From contig JBDUUL010000010.1 of the NCBI GenBank assembly GCA_039938515.1, forward strand, positions 248,001-312,000: a stretch of 64,000 bases of DNA, written 5' to 3'. This document shows, in pieces, positions 49,414 to 64,000 of the stretch (its first letter is position 1; each line of letters starts with the position of its first letter). A program made the translations under genes and the position numbers. The DNA is from Nitrososphaera sp. (GTDB taxonomy: Archaea > Thermoproteota > Nitrososphaeria > Nitrososphaerales > Nitrososphaeraceae). A model generated the notes under the pieces. That model searched no databases. It saw only the letters and a program-made list of their open reading frames with translations, and had not been told where the DNA came from.

Positions 49414-51618
49414 TTGCTAATAATGAAAACGACTAGTTGTAGAGAAATCTTAAGTAATACAATGCCTGATTCACGGCAAAGCGAATTTGGATTGGTTTCT
49501 CTAAAGGATCTGTACCGAAAGAGCCATGCTGTTATCATTGGAATTTCGAACTATAAAGAACCTGACCTAAAGTTGAACAATGCCGTAAATGACGCTCGGG
49601 ATATGGCTATAATACTTGAGGAAAAGTATGGCTTTGAAAAGGAGAACATTAAAGTTCTGTTAAATGAGGAAGCGACGCGTGCAACTCTTGCAGACCTATT
49701 TGAAAATTACCTTGGGAGCAGTGAGATTTCCAATCAAGATCGTCTCTTAGTTTATTATTCAGGGCACGGCACCATTAGGCTCAGAACGGATCCGTCGGGC
49801 AAAAGCGCAGAACAATCTTACTTAATCCCCCAGGACGCCACCCCGGGCAAATACGACACATACTATGACCTAGACGTGATCAGATCAAGCTGCGCATTCT
49901 GCTCGGCTAAGCACATTTTGATTGTATTTGACAGTTGTTTTAGCGGTACCCTTTTTGCGCGCGTAAGAAATTTGGAGGGCCCGGATGCTGGGGCAACAGA
50001 TGACAAGTTCCTAGCATGGAATATGGCCAAGAAAGCAATTCAGGCAATTGCAGCGACAGACAAGAACCAGGTTGCGCTGGATGATAATATGAACCAAAAT
50101 ACAATGCAAAATGGAGATGGAGCTCACCACGGGGCGTTCACGGGTTATTTACTGGATTATCTTAACAATCCAAATGTTCTGGATCAGAATGGGATCCTTA
50201 CCGCAACTCAAGTTGGTTCCTATCTGCAAAAGGCAGTCCCACGAGGACAGATAAGCCAAAATCCTGTTTATGGTCCGCTTTATGGCACCGAAGGCGCCGA
50301 ATTTATCTTCCAGATATTCGCACAATCGAAAACCAACTCTATCGATGATCAGCCAGTAAACCAGCCTCTCTCAGATTTGCTAAGAGCTGAAGACGTCGAG
50401 CAATTTAACCTACTTCGCGGAGAAGCTCCAAACTTAGCGAAACAAAGTTTTCGACGAAGAAACCTCGAGCATGCCAATTTCAAAAATGCAATCCTGTGTG
50501 ATGTCAACCTGAGCGAAGCTGATGCAAAAGGAGCAGACTTTTCAGGAGCTGATCTCTCTGACGCTTGCTTGGACTTTGCCGATCTCAGAACCGCAGAGTT
50601 TAAAGGCTCAGTTCTTGAGAAAGCATCCTTCCAATTCGCGCTACTAAGCGGGGCAAAAAACCTAGAGCGTGCAGGATTGGATCCTCAATCTTTTGATGGG
50701 GCCAATTTCGACTCCCCTGAGGTGGACGGTGATGCACAAACTCACTCCGGAATTGCCTCATTCTTTGATCTTAAATCTGCACCCGCAAAATACGTCGAGG
50801 TTGGATCGTACAAGACACGCTACCTTGATTATCCCCGTCCAATTTGCGAAAACAAGACGGCACAAGAACCCATTCCTACAGTCCTTCTACATGGCCTCCT
50901 TGGGTCTGCCGACACATGGCTTTTGATGACGAACTCGTTATCAAAGTACCTAAGGTTAATTGTGCCTGACATTATCGGCTCTGGAGATAGCGACAAACCT
51001 AATGTCAAGTATGATCTCGAATTCTTCATGAAATTTCTTTCAGATTTTTTTGCAAGCTTGTCTATAGGGAAGGCAAACATTGTAGCGATGTCAGTAGGCG
51101 CGCGTCAAGCAATTGAATTTACGTTAAGATTTCCTTCGCTGGTAAACAAGTTAGTTTTATGCAGCCCTCAAATACTATATCCTGGCTTTCCCATAGACGG
51201 AGTAATCAATGCTGTGACAAGCATGGATGGACCCGCGCTAATGAAGGCACTTATTCAAGGTACCAATGTAAACGACTATTACGCTAGAGATATTGACGCA
51301 GGAAAGGCTGTCCGGTCCTCTGTGGATTATTTCGTTCAGAATATACAGCAGCCTGAGCTACGCCACTCTTATGCTTCGACGCTATGCGAACTCCAAAATT
51401 ATCCTGCGCTTCCGGGTAGGTTGTCCAAGATATCCGTCCCAACTTTGCTAGTTTGGGGTGAGGAGGACTCTATGTCGCCGATTTCGTATGCGGCTCAGTT
51501 TAATGAAATCCCAAACTTGCAATACCTAAAGATGGAGGATTGTGGGCATGCCATACCTCTTGAGAAGCCACTCGAATTAAGCAAAGCCATCCTGAAATTT
51601 CTCCTCAACCTCGGATAG
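49414..51618 (+). CDS. Caspase-pentapeptide repeat-alpha/beta hydrolase fusion
   Basis: A 734-residue three-part protein. Residues ~35-300 are a C14 caspase domain with catalytic His118 (Y-Y-S-G-H-G) and Cys175 (D-S-C-F-S-G). Residues ~345-435 are pentapeptide repeats (A-N-F-x-N, A-D-L/F-x-x type). Residues ~460-734 are an alpha/beta hydrolase with oxyanion H-G-L-L-G, nucleophile elbow V-A-M-S-V-G-A (Ser560; first Gly replaced by Ala), Asp685 and His712. Thus a protease and an esterase or lipase-like enzyme are joined by a solenoid linker. Possible starts: TTG 49414, ATG 49423, ATG 49462. No signal peptide. Confidence 0.88.
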   Translation: MLIMKTTSCREILSNTMPDSRQSEFGLVSLKDLYRKSHAVIIGISNYKEPDLKLNNAVNDARDMAIILEEKYGFEKENIKVLLNEEATRATLADLFENYLGSSEISNQDRLLVYYSGHGTIRLRTDPSGKSAEQSYLIPQDATPGKYDTYYDLDVIRSSCAFCSAKHILIVFDSCFSGTLFARVRNLEGPDAGATDDKFLAWNMAKKAIQAIAATDKNQVALDDNMNQNTMQNGDGAHHGAFTGYLLDYLNNPNVLDQNGILTATQVGSYLQKAVPRGQISQNPVYGPLYGTEGAEFIFQIFAQSKTNSIDDQPVNQPLSDLLRAEDVEQFNLLRGEAPNLAKQSFRRRNLEHANFKNAILCDVNLSEADAKGADFSGADLSDACLDFADLRTAEFKGSVLEKASFQFALLSGAKNLERAGLDPQSFDGANFDSPEVDGDAQTHSGIASFFDLKSAPAKYVEVGSYKTRYLDYPRPICENKTAQEPIPTVLLHGLLGSADTWLLMTNSLSKYLRLIVPDIIGSGDSDKPNVKYDLEFFMKFLSDFFASLSIGKANIVAMSVGARQAIEFTLRFPSLVNKLVLCSPQILYPGFPIDGVINAVTSMDGPALMKALIQGTNVNDYYARDIDAGKAVRSSVDYFVQNIQQPELRHSYASTLCELQNYPALPGRLSKISVPTLLVWGEEDSMSPISYAAQFNEIPNLQYLKMEDCGHAIPLEKPLELSKAILKFLLNLG

Positions 51619-51891: not shown

Positions 51892-52662
51892 TTATGTCAA
51901 GGCGATGTGGCACACTAAGTTCGATGCCCTGATTTGAACCTGAACTGCAGTCGTTGTCCATTCGTAACTTGCATTGACATTCGGTGTCAACGCTCGAGTG
52001 ACAGAAGTCTCATCAGTCATCGCCGAAAGAAATTTGTCTAGTTCGCCTGGAATACCACGAGTGACATCGCCCCTTCTAGTCACGGGCATTTGGTCCAGCG
52101 GGGGAAGCAAAAGCGGACGAAAACTAGAAGCGCCCAGCGTCCCAAAGACCTTGAGTACATCTGTCCCTAATTTGTAACCATTGGGCAAACTTGGTGTGAG
52201 AAAGACATCTTCAAACTTGCCAGCATCTATACTGAAAAAGTCGGCGGCGGTCGGGTAAATCTGAGAAATCTCCCAATCCGGCGCTAGATCTAATGCAGTC
52301 ACATTGAGAGTACTGTCTGAGTCATTTCGTATCCTGAACACAAGGGGTAAACCTGATGTAATCGTGTAAGTGCCATCCGCTGCTGCCTTCAGCCCTGTCA
52401 GCATAGGCTTGTCTCCCGTTTCAAAACCCTTCTGCAGGCTATAAATCTCAACGGATATTCTTCTCGCTAAAGGCGAAGCTGTGTTGAAATTGTCGAGCGC
52501 AAGGATATTACTATACTTTGAAAGGTGGACAAGCCGCTGAAGCACTTTGGCTGCCGCGGACTCGTCCGTGATTTTCAACGACGGGCTTATGTTTGGAATT
52601 ACGACGCCCGCGGGGTCCTGAATTTCAAACTCATCTCTGCCGTCTGCCCCATCTATGATCAC
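51892..52662 (-). pseudogene. Truncated C-terminal domain of a metacaspase (59089-type)
   Basis: The frame matches residues ~472-708 of the protein at 59089 almost from end to end (D-E-F-x-I-Q-D, L-V-H-L-S-K-Y, D-A-G-K-F-E-D-V, S-Y-E-W-T-T-T/M), but the caspase domain and everything before it are missing. The first residues before D-E-F-E-I-Q-D are unrelated. It is closer to the fragment at 61287-62139 than to the intact gene. Immediately to the right, on the other strand, lies a piece of the partner gene, showing a deletion scar. Confidence 0.8.
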
Positions 52663-53185: not shown

Positions 53186-55711
53186 TTGCCTCATAGCTCT
53201 GCGGGTGACCTTTCAATTAGAGAGCTTTATACAAAAAGCCACGCAATTGTGATCGGTATATCAAATTATCGAGACGAAAAACTGCGGTTAAAGAATCCTG
53301 TAAATGATGCCAATGCTATCGCGAAAGTTTTAAGAGAAAATCATGGTTTTGACGACGTAGAGCTCATTATCGAAGAGGATGCATCCAAGCAAAAACTCGA
53401 GCTCCTCTTTGAGGACAGAATTAGGAGCAGTGAAATCACAAAAGATGATAGACTTCTCATCTACTATTCGGGACATGGCGAAGTCCGGCAGAGTACTGAT
53501 CAGCAGGGGAGACATTATGAGGAATCCTATATTCTTCCATACGACGCCAGACTAGGTTCGTTTGGATCTTATCTAAATCTGAATACAGTGACAGATAATT
53601 GTCAAAGGTGTAGTGCTAAGCACGTTCTCCTGATCTTAGACAGCTGCTATAGCGGAACGGCACTAATTCAAGGAAGGAATTTGAAACCAGATGAACAGAT
53701 CACAGATGAGTACCTAAGGAGGATTACCAGCAAGAGATCGTTGCAGGCTCTAGCTGCAACTGATAGAACGCAATTAGCGTTGGATAGCGGTTCTGGAATA
53801 GTCGGTCTATCTATGGAACACGGAGCATTTAGCGGATGTCTACTTGACGTATTGTCAAGGAAATTTGATCCTGATAACGATGGTATTCTGACAGCCAGTG
53901 AGGTTGGATCTTTCTTGCAAAAAAACATCCCACGCAGCAAGATACCCCAGAACCCACTTTATGGCTATATGCCAGGAAGTGAAAACGGAGAATTTATCTT
54001 TAACATCTACAAGGTGTCACAATCTCGAGATGCGGTTTCCTCGCCGCTGTCATCATTCGTCAATGAACTGTCTCCACTGGCAAAGGCAGCCTTAGATTAT
54101 TTCAAAAGAAGAGACTATGATAGGGCAATTATCTTTTATGATAGAATACTTGAGATAAACCCCAACCACGTCGAATCTCTTAACCGAAAAGGTATTTCCT
54201 ATTTGAGGTTAAATCGCTTTAACGAAGCGCGTGAATGTTTTGAGCAGGTTCTAAAAATAGAGGCCGATAATTTTGAGGCCCTAGATAATATGGATAGGCT
54301 CAAGCAGGTGGCCGCGTTTGACCACACCAATCTCAGCAAGTCTAATATTTTGGGAATTTTGGCGATTATAGGGCCGTCAAACAAAGGAAAACCGTTTCTT
54401 CCGAGAAGAATTTCAAGTATTGATGAATGTAAAGAACATTTTGGCGATACAGGATCGTTAACAAGAGACATTGCTTTGGCATTTGACAACGGCGCCACCG
54501 AAATTTTGGCAATGCGCGTCGTGAATCAAACATCCCACTTTCCTTCAGGAATACTCAGAGGACGCAAAAGAGATTTGGTTAAGTTTACAGCTAGGAGGAA
54601 ATTCAAGCGGTTAGTAGTCCAAGTTCTGCCCGGAGCGACGGATGATACAGTGAGGTTGCAAGTCGAGGCAGACGGAGAAATCGAAGATTATGATAATCTA
54701 ACGATGGTACCTATTTCCACACTTAACCTTGTAAATATCATAAATACAAATTCAAAGTCTATCTCAGCCGAGTCATTAATTTCAGACCCCCAGCAAAATC
54801 CAATTCCTCAGAGAATCGAGTTCCAAGAGGAAGAGCTGGATCCTTTAATCCGTGACTATGAACGAGCGTTTGAAATACTTGAAAACGAACCTGAGGTAGG
54901 CATTTTGTATTTATCTAACGTCTTTGATCCGGCGGTACATCGACTTGCAGACGCTCATTGCCAGATCATGAGCAATGCACAATCTAACCGCGGTCATTTG
55001 CCTAGTCCCCGACTAGCCATATGCTCTGTGTCGGCGCTTGAGCCGGTAGGGCAAGCGGTTCTGAGAACTCAGATTTTAGCTTCAGATTCAACAATTTTGG
55101 TAGCTCCCTCTCCATATGGCGCTGCCGTTGCTGCACTAATTAGCCGACTCGAATACCCTGAGACTGTTACCAATAAAGAGATAGTCGTTAATGAAACTAC
55201 CCCAGTATATAATGAAAATGAACTCGCGTTGTTAGCTCAAAATGGAATCCTTGCAGTAAAATCCAACATGCACGGAGGAGTAATAGCTAATGGGAGAACG
55301 ACGAGCAAAGAGGATATTCGCGTTATGCGAATCGCGTATCACGCAGTTCGAGGAATAATTAATGCCGTCATACAATTTTCGAAGAACAAACTCGAAACGA
55401 AAGTTAGAGTAAGCCCAAGGATCCGGTTGGAAGCCGTCAAAGGCTTCTCCCCGCCGCGAAGCGCATATTTGCCCGACTTATTACTTGATCTGAAGAAGGA
55501 GATAACCAATCTCCTTATTTCAATGGAGAAAGATGGCGCTATAACCGAGAATAAGAAAAGCAATAGCCCCGAAGCATTCCTGTTTAACATTAGCACTGAA
55601 TCTCTTGAAGATTTTATTGACCAGATTGTCAGAATAGATATTTCGCTCAGAATTACGCAAGATTCGATATTAAGTTCAGTAAACTTCCGGTTGGAAGTCA
55701 AATTTGGCTAG
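53186..55711 (+). CDS. Caspase-TPR-phage tail sheath-like fusion protein
   Basis: 841 residues. Residues ~15-275: caspase domain with His97 (Y-Y-S-G-H-G) and Cys154 (D-S-C-Y-S-G), plus a canonical EF-hand loop at 228-239 (D-P-D-N-D-G-I-L-T-A-S-E). Residues ~297-372: two TPR motifs. Residues ~387-841 resemble a phage tail sheath protein: start I-L-A-I-I-G-P-S-N-K-G-K, F-D-N-G-A-T-E-I-L-A-M-R-V-V, a later P-S-P-Y-G-A-A-V-A segment, then I-A-N-G-R-T-T-S and a closing D-I-S-L-R-I...F-R-L-E-V-K-F strand. Sheath identification is by eye. Start TTG 53186; no other tail genes are in the window. Confidence 0.8.
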   Translation: MPHSSAGDLSIRELYTKSHAIVIGISNYRDEKLRLKNPVNDANAIAKVLRENHGFDDVELIIEEDASKQKLELLFEDRIRSSEITKDDRLLIYYSGHGEVRQSTDQQGRHYEESYILPYDARLGSFGSYLNLNTVTDNCQRCSAKHVLLILDSCYSGTALIQGRNLKPDEQITDEYLRRITSKRSLQALAATDRTQLALDSGSGIVGLSMEHGAFSGCLLDVLSRKFDPDNDGILTASEVGSFLQKNIPRSKIPQNPLYGYMPGSENGEFIFNIYKVSQSRDAVSSPLSSFVNELSPLAKAALDYFKRRDYDRAIIFYDRILEINPNHVESLNRKGISYLRLNRFNEARECFEQVLKIEADNFEALDNMDRLKQVAAFDHTNLSKSNILGILAIIGPSNKGKPFLPRRISSIDECKEHFGDTGSLTRDIALAFDNGATEILAMRVVNQTSHFPSGILRGRKRDLVKFTARRKFKRLVVQVLPGATDDTVRLQVEADGEIEDYDNLTMVPISTLNLVNIINTNSKSISAESLISDPQQNPIPQRIEFQEEELDPLIRDYERAFEILENEPEVGILYLSNVFDPAVHRLADAHCQIMSNAQSNRGHLPSPRLAICSVSALEPVGQAVLRTQILASDSTILVAPSPYGAAVAALISRLEYPETVTNKEIVVNETTPVYNENELALLAQNGILAVKSNMHGGVIANGRTTSKEDIRVMRIAYHAVRGIINAVIQFSKNKLETKVRVSPRIRLEAVKGFSPPRSAYLPDLLLDLKKEITNLLISMEKDGAITENKKSNSPEAFLFNISTESLEDFIDQIVRIDISLRITQDSILSSVNFRLEVKFG

Positions 55712-61286: not shown

Positions 61287-62139
61287 GTGGCGATACCTCC
61301 CACACAAGGGGCACCACAGACGGCGGCTCTTGCAAAATTAAGAGACATTATTCCGAGGTCAGGCAAGATTGTAGAGATTGGTCAGCCGCAGGAAGCCGAC
61401 TTCTTTGTGGTAATCAATAACAGAGACGAGTTTGAGATCCAAGATCCTTCAGGGGTGGCAATCCCAAAGATTAACCCTCAATTGAAAATCTCGGACGAAT
61501 TTGCGGCGGGCAAAGTACTCGGGGCTGATCCATCTTTCAAAATACAAGAACGTCCTTATGCTGGATAATTTCAACGCCGCTTCTCTTCTAGCAAGAAAAT
61601 TATCCGTCGAGCTTTACAGCCTGCAAAAGGGTTTCGAGATTGGAGACAGGCCTATATTGACCCCCCTAGAGGCCGCAGCGGATGGTACTTTCACCGTGAC
61701 GTCTGGCTCGCAGCTAGTATTCAGGATGCGGAATAACTCGGACAGAACGCTGAATGTAACCGCATTAGATCTAGCACCAGATTGGAAGATATCACAAGTA
61801 TACCCGGTTGGCTCTGACTTTTTCAGTATTGATGCCGGCAAGTTTGAAGACGTATTCCTAACCTGCGGACTGCCAGACGGCTACAAGTCCGGAATAGACG
61901 TCTTCAAAGTCTTCGGCACGATGGGAGCGGCTAGCTTTCGCCCGCTGATACTCCCGACACTTGACCAAAAGCCTATGATTCAGAAGGGCGTTGTAACTCG
62001 CGGCATCCCAAGCGAACTAGACAAGTTCTTGTTGGCAATGACAGACGAGGCTTCGGTTACACGGGCATTGACACCAAATGTGAATGCGAATTATGAGTGG
62101 ACAACGACAGCTGTTCAGGTTCAGATAGTGTCATCATAA
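61287..62139 (+). pseudogene. Frameshifted copy of the metacaspase C-terminal domain
   Basis: Two overlapping frames together match the C-terminal ~275 residues of the protein at 59089. The first (61287-61568) runs K-V-A-I-P-P-T-Q-G... through D-E-F-E-I-Q-D to K-V-L-G, then goes off. The second resumes at L-I-H-L-S-K-Y-K-N-V and continues to the end of the domain. The shift lies at the run of four G at 61521-61524, with a net loss of two bases relative to paralogues. The caspase domain is absent. The copy is more similar to the 51892 fragment than to the adjacent intact gene. Confidence 0.8.
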
Positions 62140-62321: not shown

Positions 62322-64000
62322 ATGGCAACACGAGACCTTTTGCCAGCAGTTGGCGCGGAGAAGAAATTGATCGCAACAAATGACGCTCGCTTTATCTCCG
62401 TCAAGGAACTTTATACTCGCAGTTATGCCATCGTAATAGGAATATCTAGCTACAAGGATGAGAGGCTCAAACTAAAGAATCCTGTAAACGACGCTAAAGA
62501 GGTTGCAAGAGTCTTGAAAGAAAAACACGGATTCGATGAGGTGCAATTAATACTTGATTCGGAGGCGACACGTGAAAATCTCGCTTCGATTTTTGATGAC
62601 AAAATTAGAAGTAAAGAAGTTACAAGAGACGACAGGCTTCTAGTTTACTACTCTGGTCATGGCGATATTAGGGCGAGTGCGGACCAACAGGAGAATACCT
62701 ACTCTGAATCGTTCCTAATACCGTTCGACGCAAAATATGGCACATATAGCAGCTACCTTAACCTTGATATCATAACTAGGAACTGTCGACTTTGTAGTGC
62801 GAAACACGTTTTACTCATACTTGACAGCTGCTATAGCGGTACTGCGTTAATAGATAGACGCAGCCCTCCACGACCAGACATCGTAAATGATGAATATCTC
62901 AAATCAATAACGAATAAGAGGTCTATACAAGCAGTAGCAGCGACTGACAAGAGCCAGTTGGCTCTGGACTCCGGAGTTGGTCTTGGTCAACTAAGTTCTT
63001 CACATGGTGCATTCACAGGCTGCCTGCTCGAGATATTGGACAGTGATTTTGACCCCGACAATGATGGAATCCTAACTGCCAGCGAGTTGGGACAATATTT
63101 GGTAAAAAACGTACCGCGCAACGATATACCTCAGAATCCGCTTTATGGTTACCTTCCAGGCAGTGAGATTGGTGATTTTATTTTCAATATTTACACTAGA
63201 CCCGCTGTTAAGATTGGGTCGACTGGAGCTGTATCTGAAGTCCCAGTTGCTCAGTCATTCGACGAAATGTCACCACTTGTCAAAGCAGCTAGCGAGTATT
63301 ATGCGAGAAGGGAATACGAACGAGCAATTACCTTCTTGGATAGGATATTGGAGATTAATCCAAAGCATATCGGATCGCTAACTCGAAAGGGAATTTCCTC
63401 GATGAAAATTAACAGAATTGAGGATGCAAGAAATTGTTTCAGGCAGGTCCTATCGCTTGAGAAGGATAATGTCGAGGCATTGGACTACTTGGAAAGGCTT
63501 GACCAATTAGCTGCAAAGTCAAACCCGACATCAGAGGATTCGCCTCAGGAAAAAAAGATTCCATCTGCTGGTTCCGAAATGCATCCTAAACAGACCATCA
63601 GATTGTATGAACAGGGAAGGAAACTCTATGATGAAGGTAATTCGAGAAAGGCTATAGAATTCTACGACAAAGCAATTGAGCAGAACCCCGAATTTGCGGC
63701 TGCGTGGAATGGCAAGGGTCTTGCACTCTTCCATCAACGCGAGTACCAGGAAGCCATTTCTTGCTATAACAAAGCCATTGAGATAAAACCTGATTATTAT
63801 GAGACATACAATGACAAGGGAGTTCTTCTGAAAGAATTGGGTCGAATCGAAGAGGCCATTTCTTGCTATAACAAAGCCATTGAAATAAAACCTGACTATG
63901 CTAAAGCATACAACAACAAGGGTCTTGCTCTAAACAAGCTTGGCAAGTATATGGAAGCAATTGCGAATTTTCAGACTGCGCTCAAATTAGAGCCGAGCAA
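62322..64000 (+). CDS. Caspase-TPR protein (3' partial)
   Basis: Starts at ATG 62322 and is still open at the window edge. Residues ~25-285: caspase domain with His113 (Y-Y-S-G-H-G) and Cys170 (D-S-C-Y-S-G), and the same canonical EF-hand loop as the 53186 protein (D-P-D-N-D-G-I-L-T-A-S-E). From ~305 on: TPR units, first a degenerate pair, a Ser/Pro/Lys linker, then canonical 34-residue repeats (E-A-I-S-C-Y-N-K-A-I-E-I-K-P-D-Y) to the edge. The N-terminal 300 residues are close to the 53186 protein, so they are paralogues with different C-terminal parts. What follows the TPR array is unknown. Confidence 0.9.
   Translation, partial: MATRDLLPAVGAEKKLIATNDARFISVKELYTRSYAIVIGISSYKDERLKLKNPVNDAKEVARVLKEKHGFDEVQLILDSEATRENLASIFDDKIRSKEVTRDDRLLVYYSGHGDIRASADQQENTYSESFLIPFDAKYGTYSSYLNLDIITRNCRLCSAKHVLLILDSCYSGTALIDRRSPPRPDIVNDEYLKSITNKRSIQAVAATDKSQLALDSGVGLGQLSSSHGAFTGCLLEILDSDFDPDNDGILTASELGQYLVKNVPRNDIPQNPLYGYLPGSEIGDFIFNIYTRPAVKIGSTGAVSEVPVAQSFDEMSPLVKAASEYYARREYERAITFLDRILEINPKHIGSLTRKGISSMKINRIEDARNCFRQVLSLEKDNVEALDYLERLDQLAAKSNPTSEDSPQEKKIPSAGSEMHPKQTIRLYEQGRKLYDEGNSRKAIEFYDKAIEQNPEFAAAWNGKGLALFHQREYQEAISCYNKAIEIKPDYYETYNDKGVLLKELGRIEEAISCYNKAIEIKPDYAKAYNNKGLALNKLGKYMEAIANFQTALKLEPS
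63753..63899 (+). repeat. Near-identical 102-bp TPR DNA repeats
   Basis: The 29 bases 63753-63781 recur exactly at 63855-63883, and the following ~16 bases differ at only two positions. The offset of 102 bases equals one 34-residue TPR, so it is recent tandem duplication in the TPR array of the 62322 gene. Confidence 0.8.

Follow-up and report, generated by a model that had tools for sequence, protein, structure and literature searches.

A caspase-TPR protein of a soil Nitrososphaera carries a strongly diverged contractile-tail sheath domain

Background

In E. coli, one anti-phage defence protein combines a RelE-like region with another that resembles a phage tail sheath, and it has been shown to protect against phage (PMC9519451). 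It shares with the archaeal fusion described here the presence of a toxic enzyme type and a sheath-like region in one protein, but its toxin is of RNase type, its host is bacterial and its sheath similarity is called distant, and we liken the two by description. Protease-bearing, defence-like machinery is also linked to phage-like particles in the CARD-NLR-like LypABC system, which is reported to control the release of gene transfer agents (PMC13236601); unlike the fusion, it is made up of three distinct proteins, and its peptidases are of other types.

Prokaryotic caspase and caspase-TPR conflict proteins (PADLOC PDLC02987; EACC1-type NF047832) resemble the fusion in their catalytic dyad, variable C-terminal module and clustered paralogues, but no member carrying a sheath module was found, and the fusion matches NF047832 (residues 18-248) at a score under that model's curated cut-off. 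For archaeal caspases of this type we know of no established trigger. Stand-alone archaeal sheaths (PHROG_279 / PF04984-PF17482; for example L026 of Nitrososphaeraceae and L032 of Methanosuratincola) are homologous to the other half of the fusion over the whole domain and have the same predicted fold; unlike the fusion, they keep an N-terminal arm and C-terminal motifs, adjoin tube genes in the neighbourhoods that were read, and are in no instance fused to a caspase. Here we describe a caspase-TPR paralogue that holds a strongly diverged archaeal contractile-tail sheath domain whose frame is still open and whose core can still be recognised. A search of a literature library brought up no caspase-sheath precedent, but did bring up the E. 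coli RelE-sheath case.

Results and discussion

A caspase gene with an in-frame sheath domain

The fusion gene occupies 53186..55711 on the forward strand (the strand of every feature given below with both coordinates and residue numbers) of the window, the whole stretch of 64,000 nucleotides that was analysed. It is located inside a 327 kb contig in the genome (2.56 Mb, 24 contigs, 99.84% complete) of a soil ammonia-oxidising archaeon, Nitrososphaera. The gene forms one uninterrupted frame (841 aa), starting with a TTG at 53186 immediately 3' of an in-frame TAA and ending with a stop at 55711. Re-reading the sequence reproduced the coordinates, frame and residue numbers (His97, Cys154) of a preliminary description, and its domain call of an intact caspase followed by TPRs and a tail sheath agrees with Pfam, PHROG, homologues and AlphaFold/Foldseek. 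The open sheath frame is not a product of chance, since none of 2000 shuffles of the sheath region remained open (about 28 in-frame stops per shuffle). The two parts of the sheath half both have a coding-like base composition, which matches that of the caspase half (caspase vs sheath: GC 0.425 vs 0.428; GC3 0.396 vs 0.398).

The caspase (Peptidase_C14) domain, delimited with Pfam, NCBIfam and PADLOC, covers residues 18-248 (53237..53929), within which Peptidase_C14 matches residues 18-236 (E=2.6e-20); the PADLOC caspase model matches with E=1.2e-15. Judged by the motifs SGHG (residues 95-98), containing the predicted catalytic His97 (53474..53476), and DSCYSG (residues 152-157), containing the predicted catalytic Cys154 (53645..53647), the fusion is a Peptidase C14 caspase with a His/Cys dyad. 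Both dyad motifs are intact in the fusion and in 5/5 aligned paralogues; the full-length AlphaFold model renders the caspase part at low confidence. An EF-hand-like loop, DPDNDGILTASE (residues 228-239; 53867..53902), has a weak Pfam EF-hand match (E=0.018) and is kept in four of the five aligned paralogues. Two TPRs at residues 296-366 (54071..54283), recognised by Pfam, which places them at about residues 300-366, and by the paralogue alignment, are common to most paralogues.

Four of these paralogues share the first 370 residues of the fusion at 53-63%, the fifth aligns at 45% over residues 4-294, and all five caspase paralogues lie within ~22 kb. Because their C-termini past the shared part differ, comprising TPRs, other sequence, or pentapeptide repeats with an alpha/beta hydrolase, the sheath can be said to occupy a variable C-terminal slot. 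The paralogue with pentapeptide repeats and hydrolase (49414..51618, forward strand; Pfam and paralogue comparison) is another unusual fusion. One with a TPR array (62322..63998, forward strand) extends beyond the window end, and past it three more paralogues follow within ~11 kb on the contig.

A tail-sheath-derived domain

Residues 387-841 (54344..55708) form the tail-sheath-derived domain, as identified with PHROG_279, homologue alignment and AlphaFold with Foldseek. Of the sheath profiles proposed earlier as a check, neither PF04984 nor PF17482 (Pfam) matches the fused domain itself, but PHROG_279 'tail sheath' matches residues 361-841 with E=6.9e-14 (over fragment residues 24-346), and the stand-alone homologues, with which the fused domain aligns full length, match both Pfam families (PF17482 partly under its curated cut-off). 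Identity between the fused domain and stand-alone archaeal sheaths is 27-38% over the aligned domain and at most 42% over the best-matching part, the 42% stretch being to L002, itself a PF04984 match. Searching PDB sequences with the sheath half directly gave no match. Structure prediction, also proposed as a check, supports a sheath: all of the best 50 PDB matches listed by Foldseek are sheath or sheath-containing phage/contractile-tail entries (best E=2.1e-16), among them the sheath of the archaeon Halogeometricum borinquense (PMC11566945). For the domain, AlphaFold gave a model with a mean pLDDT of 71, rising to ~90 over approximately the first 210 residues after the joint; whole-domain TM-scores are only ~0.3-0.4, which leaves the packing of sub-domains uncertain. 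On this model, the C-terminal domain has a sheath fold.

A protein search of 101 related genomes returned stand-alone proteins of ~460 residues with 30-42% identity over the main matched stretches; in the aligned rows the stand-alone sheaths measure about 445-460 aa. Tube genes of one family directly adjoin three of them (G005, G025 and G054, a cut-off copy). In Methanosuratincola (L032) the sheath stands first in a cluster whose other genes match DNA_circ_N, phage-base-V/OB, sheath-initiator (weak) and Baseplate_J, and because of this gene cluster we regard the family as true contractile-tail sheaths. An alignment-based scan across genomes of 84,980 species yielded 29 loci, 27 archaeal (Nitrososphaeria, Bathyarchaeota, Methanomethylicota and several euryarchaeal lineages) and 2 weak bacterial, and every archaeal frame read from it was a stand-alone sheath. 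Single-sequence scanning of the same genome contigs found nothing; the pattern-based collection scan may miss diverged copies. Among phage-record proteins the fused domain had no match, and a stand-alone homologue matched only distant phage sheaths (<32% identity). The cognate sheath occurs together with its tube in relatives of the same genus and family, and a close sheath was found on a predicted viral contig, so a possible trigger is nearby.

No other caspase-sheath fusion was found in several hundred genomes of the phylum, class and family, and the fusion is a singleton among the sampled genomes of all collections searched. The window holds no contractile apparatus, as the preliminary description had said, and the search for contractile injection genes that it proposed for the rest of the genome gave the same outcome: at 99.84% completeness, the genome has no second (PF04984) sheath, no Baseplate_J and no tube of the family linked to stand-alone sheaths, with positive controls for both the tube search (matches in relatives) and the Pfam searches (matches in control genomes). 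The fusion is not part of a complete contractile injection cluster in this genome.

At L106:4913-6448 (G011, same genus), L110:3748-5349 (G044) and L127 (G015) there are sheath genes that differ in type and encode about 511-540 aa. By eye, no tube or baseplate gene was recognised in the ORFs neighbouring those of L106 and L110, and the L106 sheath adjoins a DNA-ligase-like gene; orphan sheaths may recur in Nitrososphaeraceae. A contractile-tail-like cluster at L111:1507-12000 (G040, same family) combines, again by eye, a sheath of another type with tube-like, ATPase-like and LysM-like genes.

Divergence and losses

Alignment with 24 stand-alone sheaths shows that the N-terminal arm (PGVExxVVKEIVPQ) is missing from the fused domain, at the position where the TPR joins, and that motifs such as FIGTLNN and VDVYSSQxDFAQG have been replaced. 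A 25-residue insert (residues 744-768; 55415..55489), absent from stand-alone sheaths in the alignment, adjoins the lost FIGTLNN motif. The fusion keeps 73/149 columns that are at least 90% conserved in the family, divided unevenly between the N-terminal arm plus C-terminal domain (19/60) and the remainder (54/89; p=0.0008, with the two regions set by eye on the alignment). Conserved C-terminal positions, counted on the sequence, are kept at 17 of 50. At columns conserved at 95% it keeps 66/137, compared to 117/137 for L051, a divergent but genuine sheath. At 2.81 changes per column, where the median is 0.15, its branch is so long that the fused sheath cannot be placed on the tree; this length also fits relaxed constraint.

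The arms and handshake strands of contractile sheaths make the mesh between subunits. Going by its sequence, the fused domain does not appear to be a functional sheath subunit. With the arm and most conserved C-terminal positions lost, it is unlikely to co-polymerise in the ordinary way as a complete subunit; capping, binding from one side, or simply acting as a scaffold would fit better than the co-assembly with an invading sheath suggested in the preliminary description.

Possible roles of the fusion

Since no contractile tail was detected in the genome, the virus-derived part has probably taken on a new use, in recognition or as a scaffold. We lean, at somewhat under even confidence, to the view that the sheath module of this caspase has been exapted to sense incoming contractile tails or to act as a decoy for them, a sensing step that we infer. 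Our reasons are that cognate sheaths occur in relatives as well as on a contig predicted to be viral, and that E. coli has the RelE-sheath defence protein (PMC9519451). The sheath domain would then be a non-contractile binding module whose partner is a related sheath, or a tube/sheath intermediate, from an infecting virus or a neighbour's contractile injection system; binding would cluster or unmask the attached caspase, and the active enzyme would cleave host proteins, leading to cell death or arrest in the manner of abortive infection. The concentration of losses in the arm and C-terminal domain counts for such a binding module, as do the sheath fold and family, the intact dyad motifs, the absence of a resident contractile system by three markers and the differing C-termini of the clustered paralogues, whereas the lack of an orthologue in the genomes searched, the long branch and the absence of a classical defence operon count against a sensor or decoy. 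In a stronger formulation, possible but doubtful, the fusion would be an innate-immune protein of archaea, and a captured sheath that can no longer assemble would serve as the antigen-mimic receptor of its caspase, so that an invader's sheath binding the decoy would trigger the caspase and regulated cell death. If the sheath half does sense tails, a structural protein of viruses has become the receptor of a cell-death protease. Contractile tails would then be linked directly, and in a testable way, to caspase immunity in archaea, and the fusion and the E. coli RelE-sheath protein (PMC9519451) would together make up a pattern of defence proteins derived from sheaths.

The same domain might instead be a scaffold, its core self-associating to gather caspases like an apoptosome hub, with the trigger elsewhere (Ca2+ via the EF-hand-like loop, or TPR partners) and no present link to tails. 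The sheath does fill the slot held by TPR arrays or pentapeptide repeats in paralogues, its core is better kept than its arms, and the EF-hand-like loop is widely retained, but the arms normally used for sheath polymerisation are lost and self-association of the core is putative; we consider a scaffold somewhat unlikely. Singleton status, the very long branch and the lost conserved positions would also be expected of a decaying chimera, a contractile-tail remnant recombined onto a caspase gene and heading for loss, with a functionless sheath half. Against this stand 841 codons without a stop, coding-like composition in both sheath parts as in the caspase half, preferential retention of core positions and a core modelled at high confidence by AlphaFold. 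The open frame, core retention and high-confidence core lead us to disfavour simple decay, which we rate as improbable, although these features come from one genome and are no proof of selection.

Effectors joined to parts of contractile systems are known in principle, and the family is one of true contractile-tail sheaths, so the caspase could conceivably ride on a special sheath subunit and be delivered or released at firing. The assembly arms are lost, and the genome, at 99.8% completeness, has neither a tube of the family nor baseplate J nor another sheath, while the tube search gave matches in relatives and the Pfam searches in control genomes; this role as an injection-system part is disfavoured and very improbable. 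We think it equally far-fetched that two unrelated genes were joined in assembly: a singleton invites that suspicion, but the join is in frame directly after the shared TPRs, the sheath's N-terminal arm is missing at the joint, base composition is nearly identical on either side, and the joint lies inside a 327 kb contig.

Gene neighbourhood

No classical defence operon surrounds the fusion; besides the caspases, its neighbours are a CHAT protein, lipases (a patatin and a PC-PLC-like enzyme) and a large protein that weakly resembles ATPases. A short C-terminal motif, ENPTLP/KPTLP, is found in two caspase paralogues (L008:2323-4338 and L008:7930-9477), with three copies in one and a single copy near the extreme end of the other, and is absent from the fusion. 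A more divergent caspase at 59089-61215 matches the PADLOC caspase model over nearly its full length (E=1.6e-35). Its C-terminal region recurs in two shorter flanking ORFs, 51892-52662 and 61501-62139, one per strand, which look like partial duplicates of that region.
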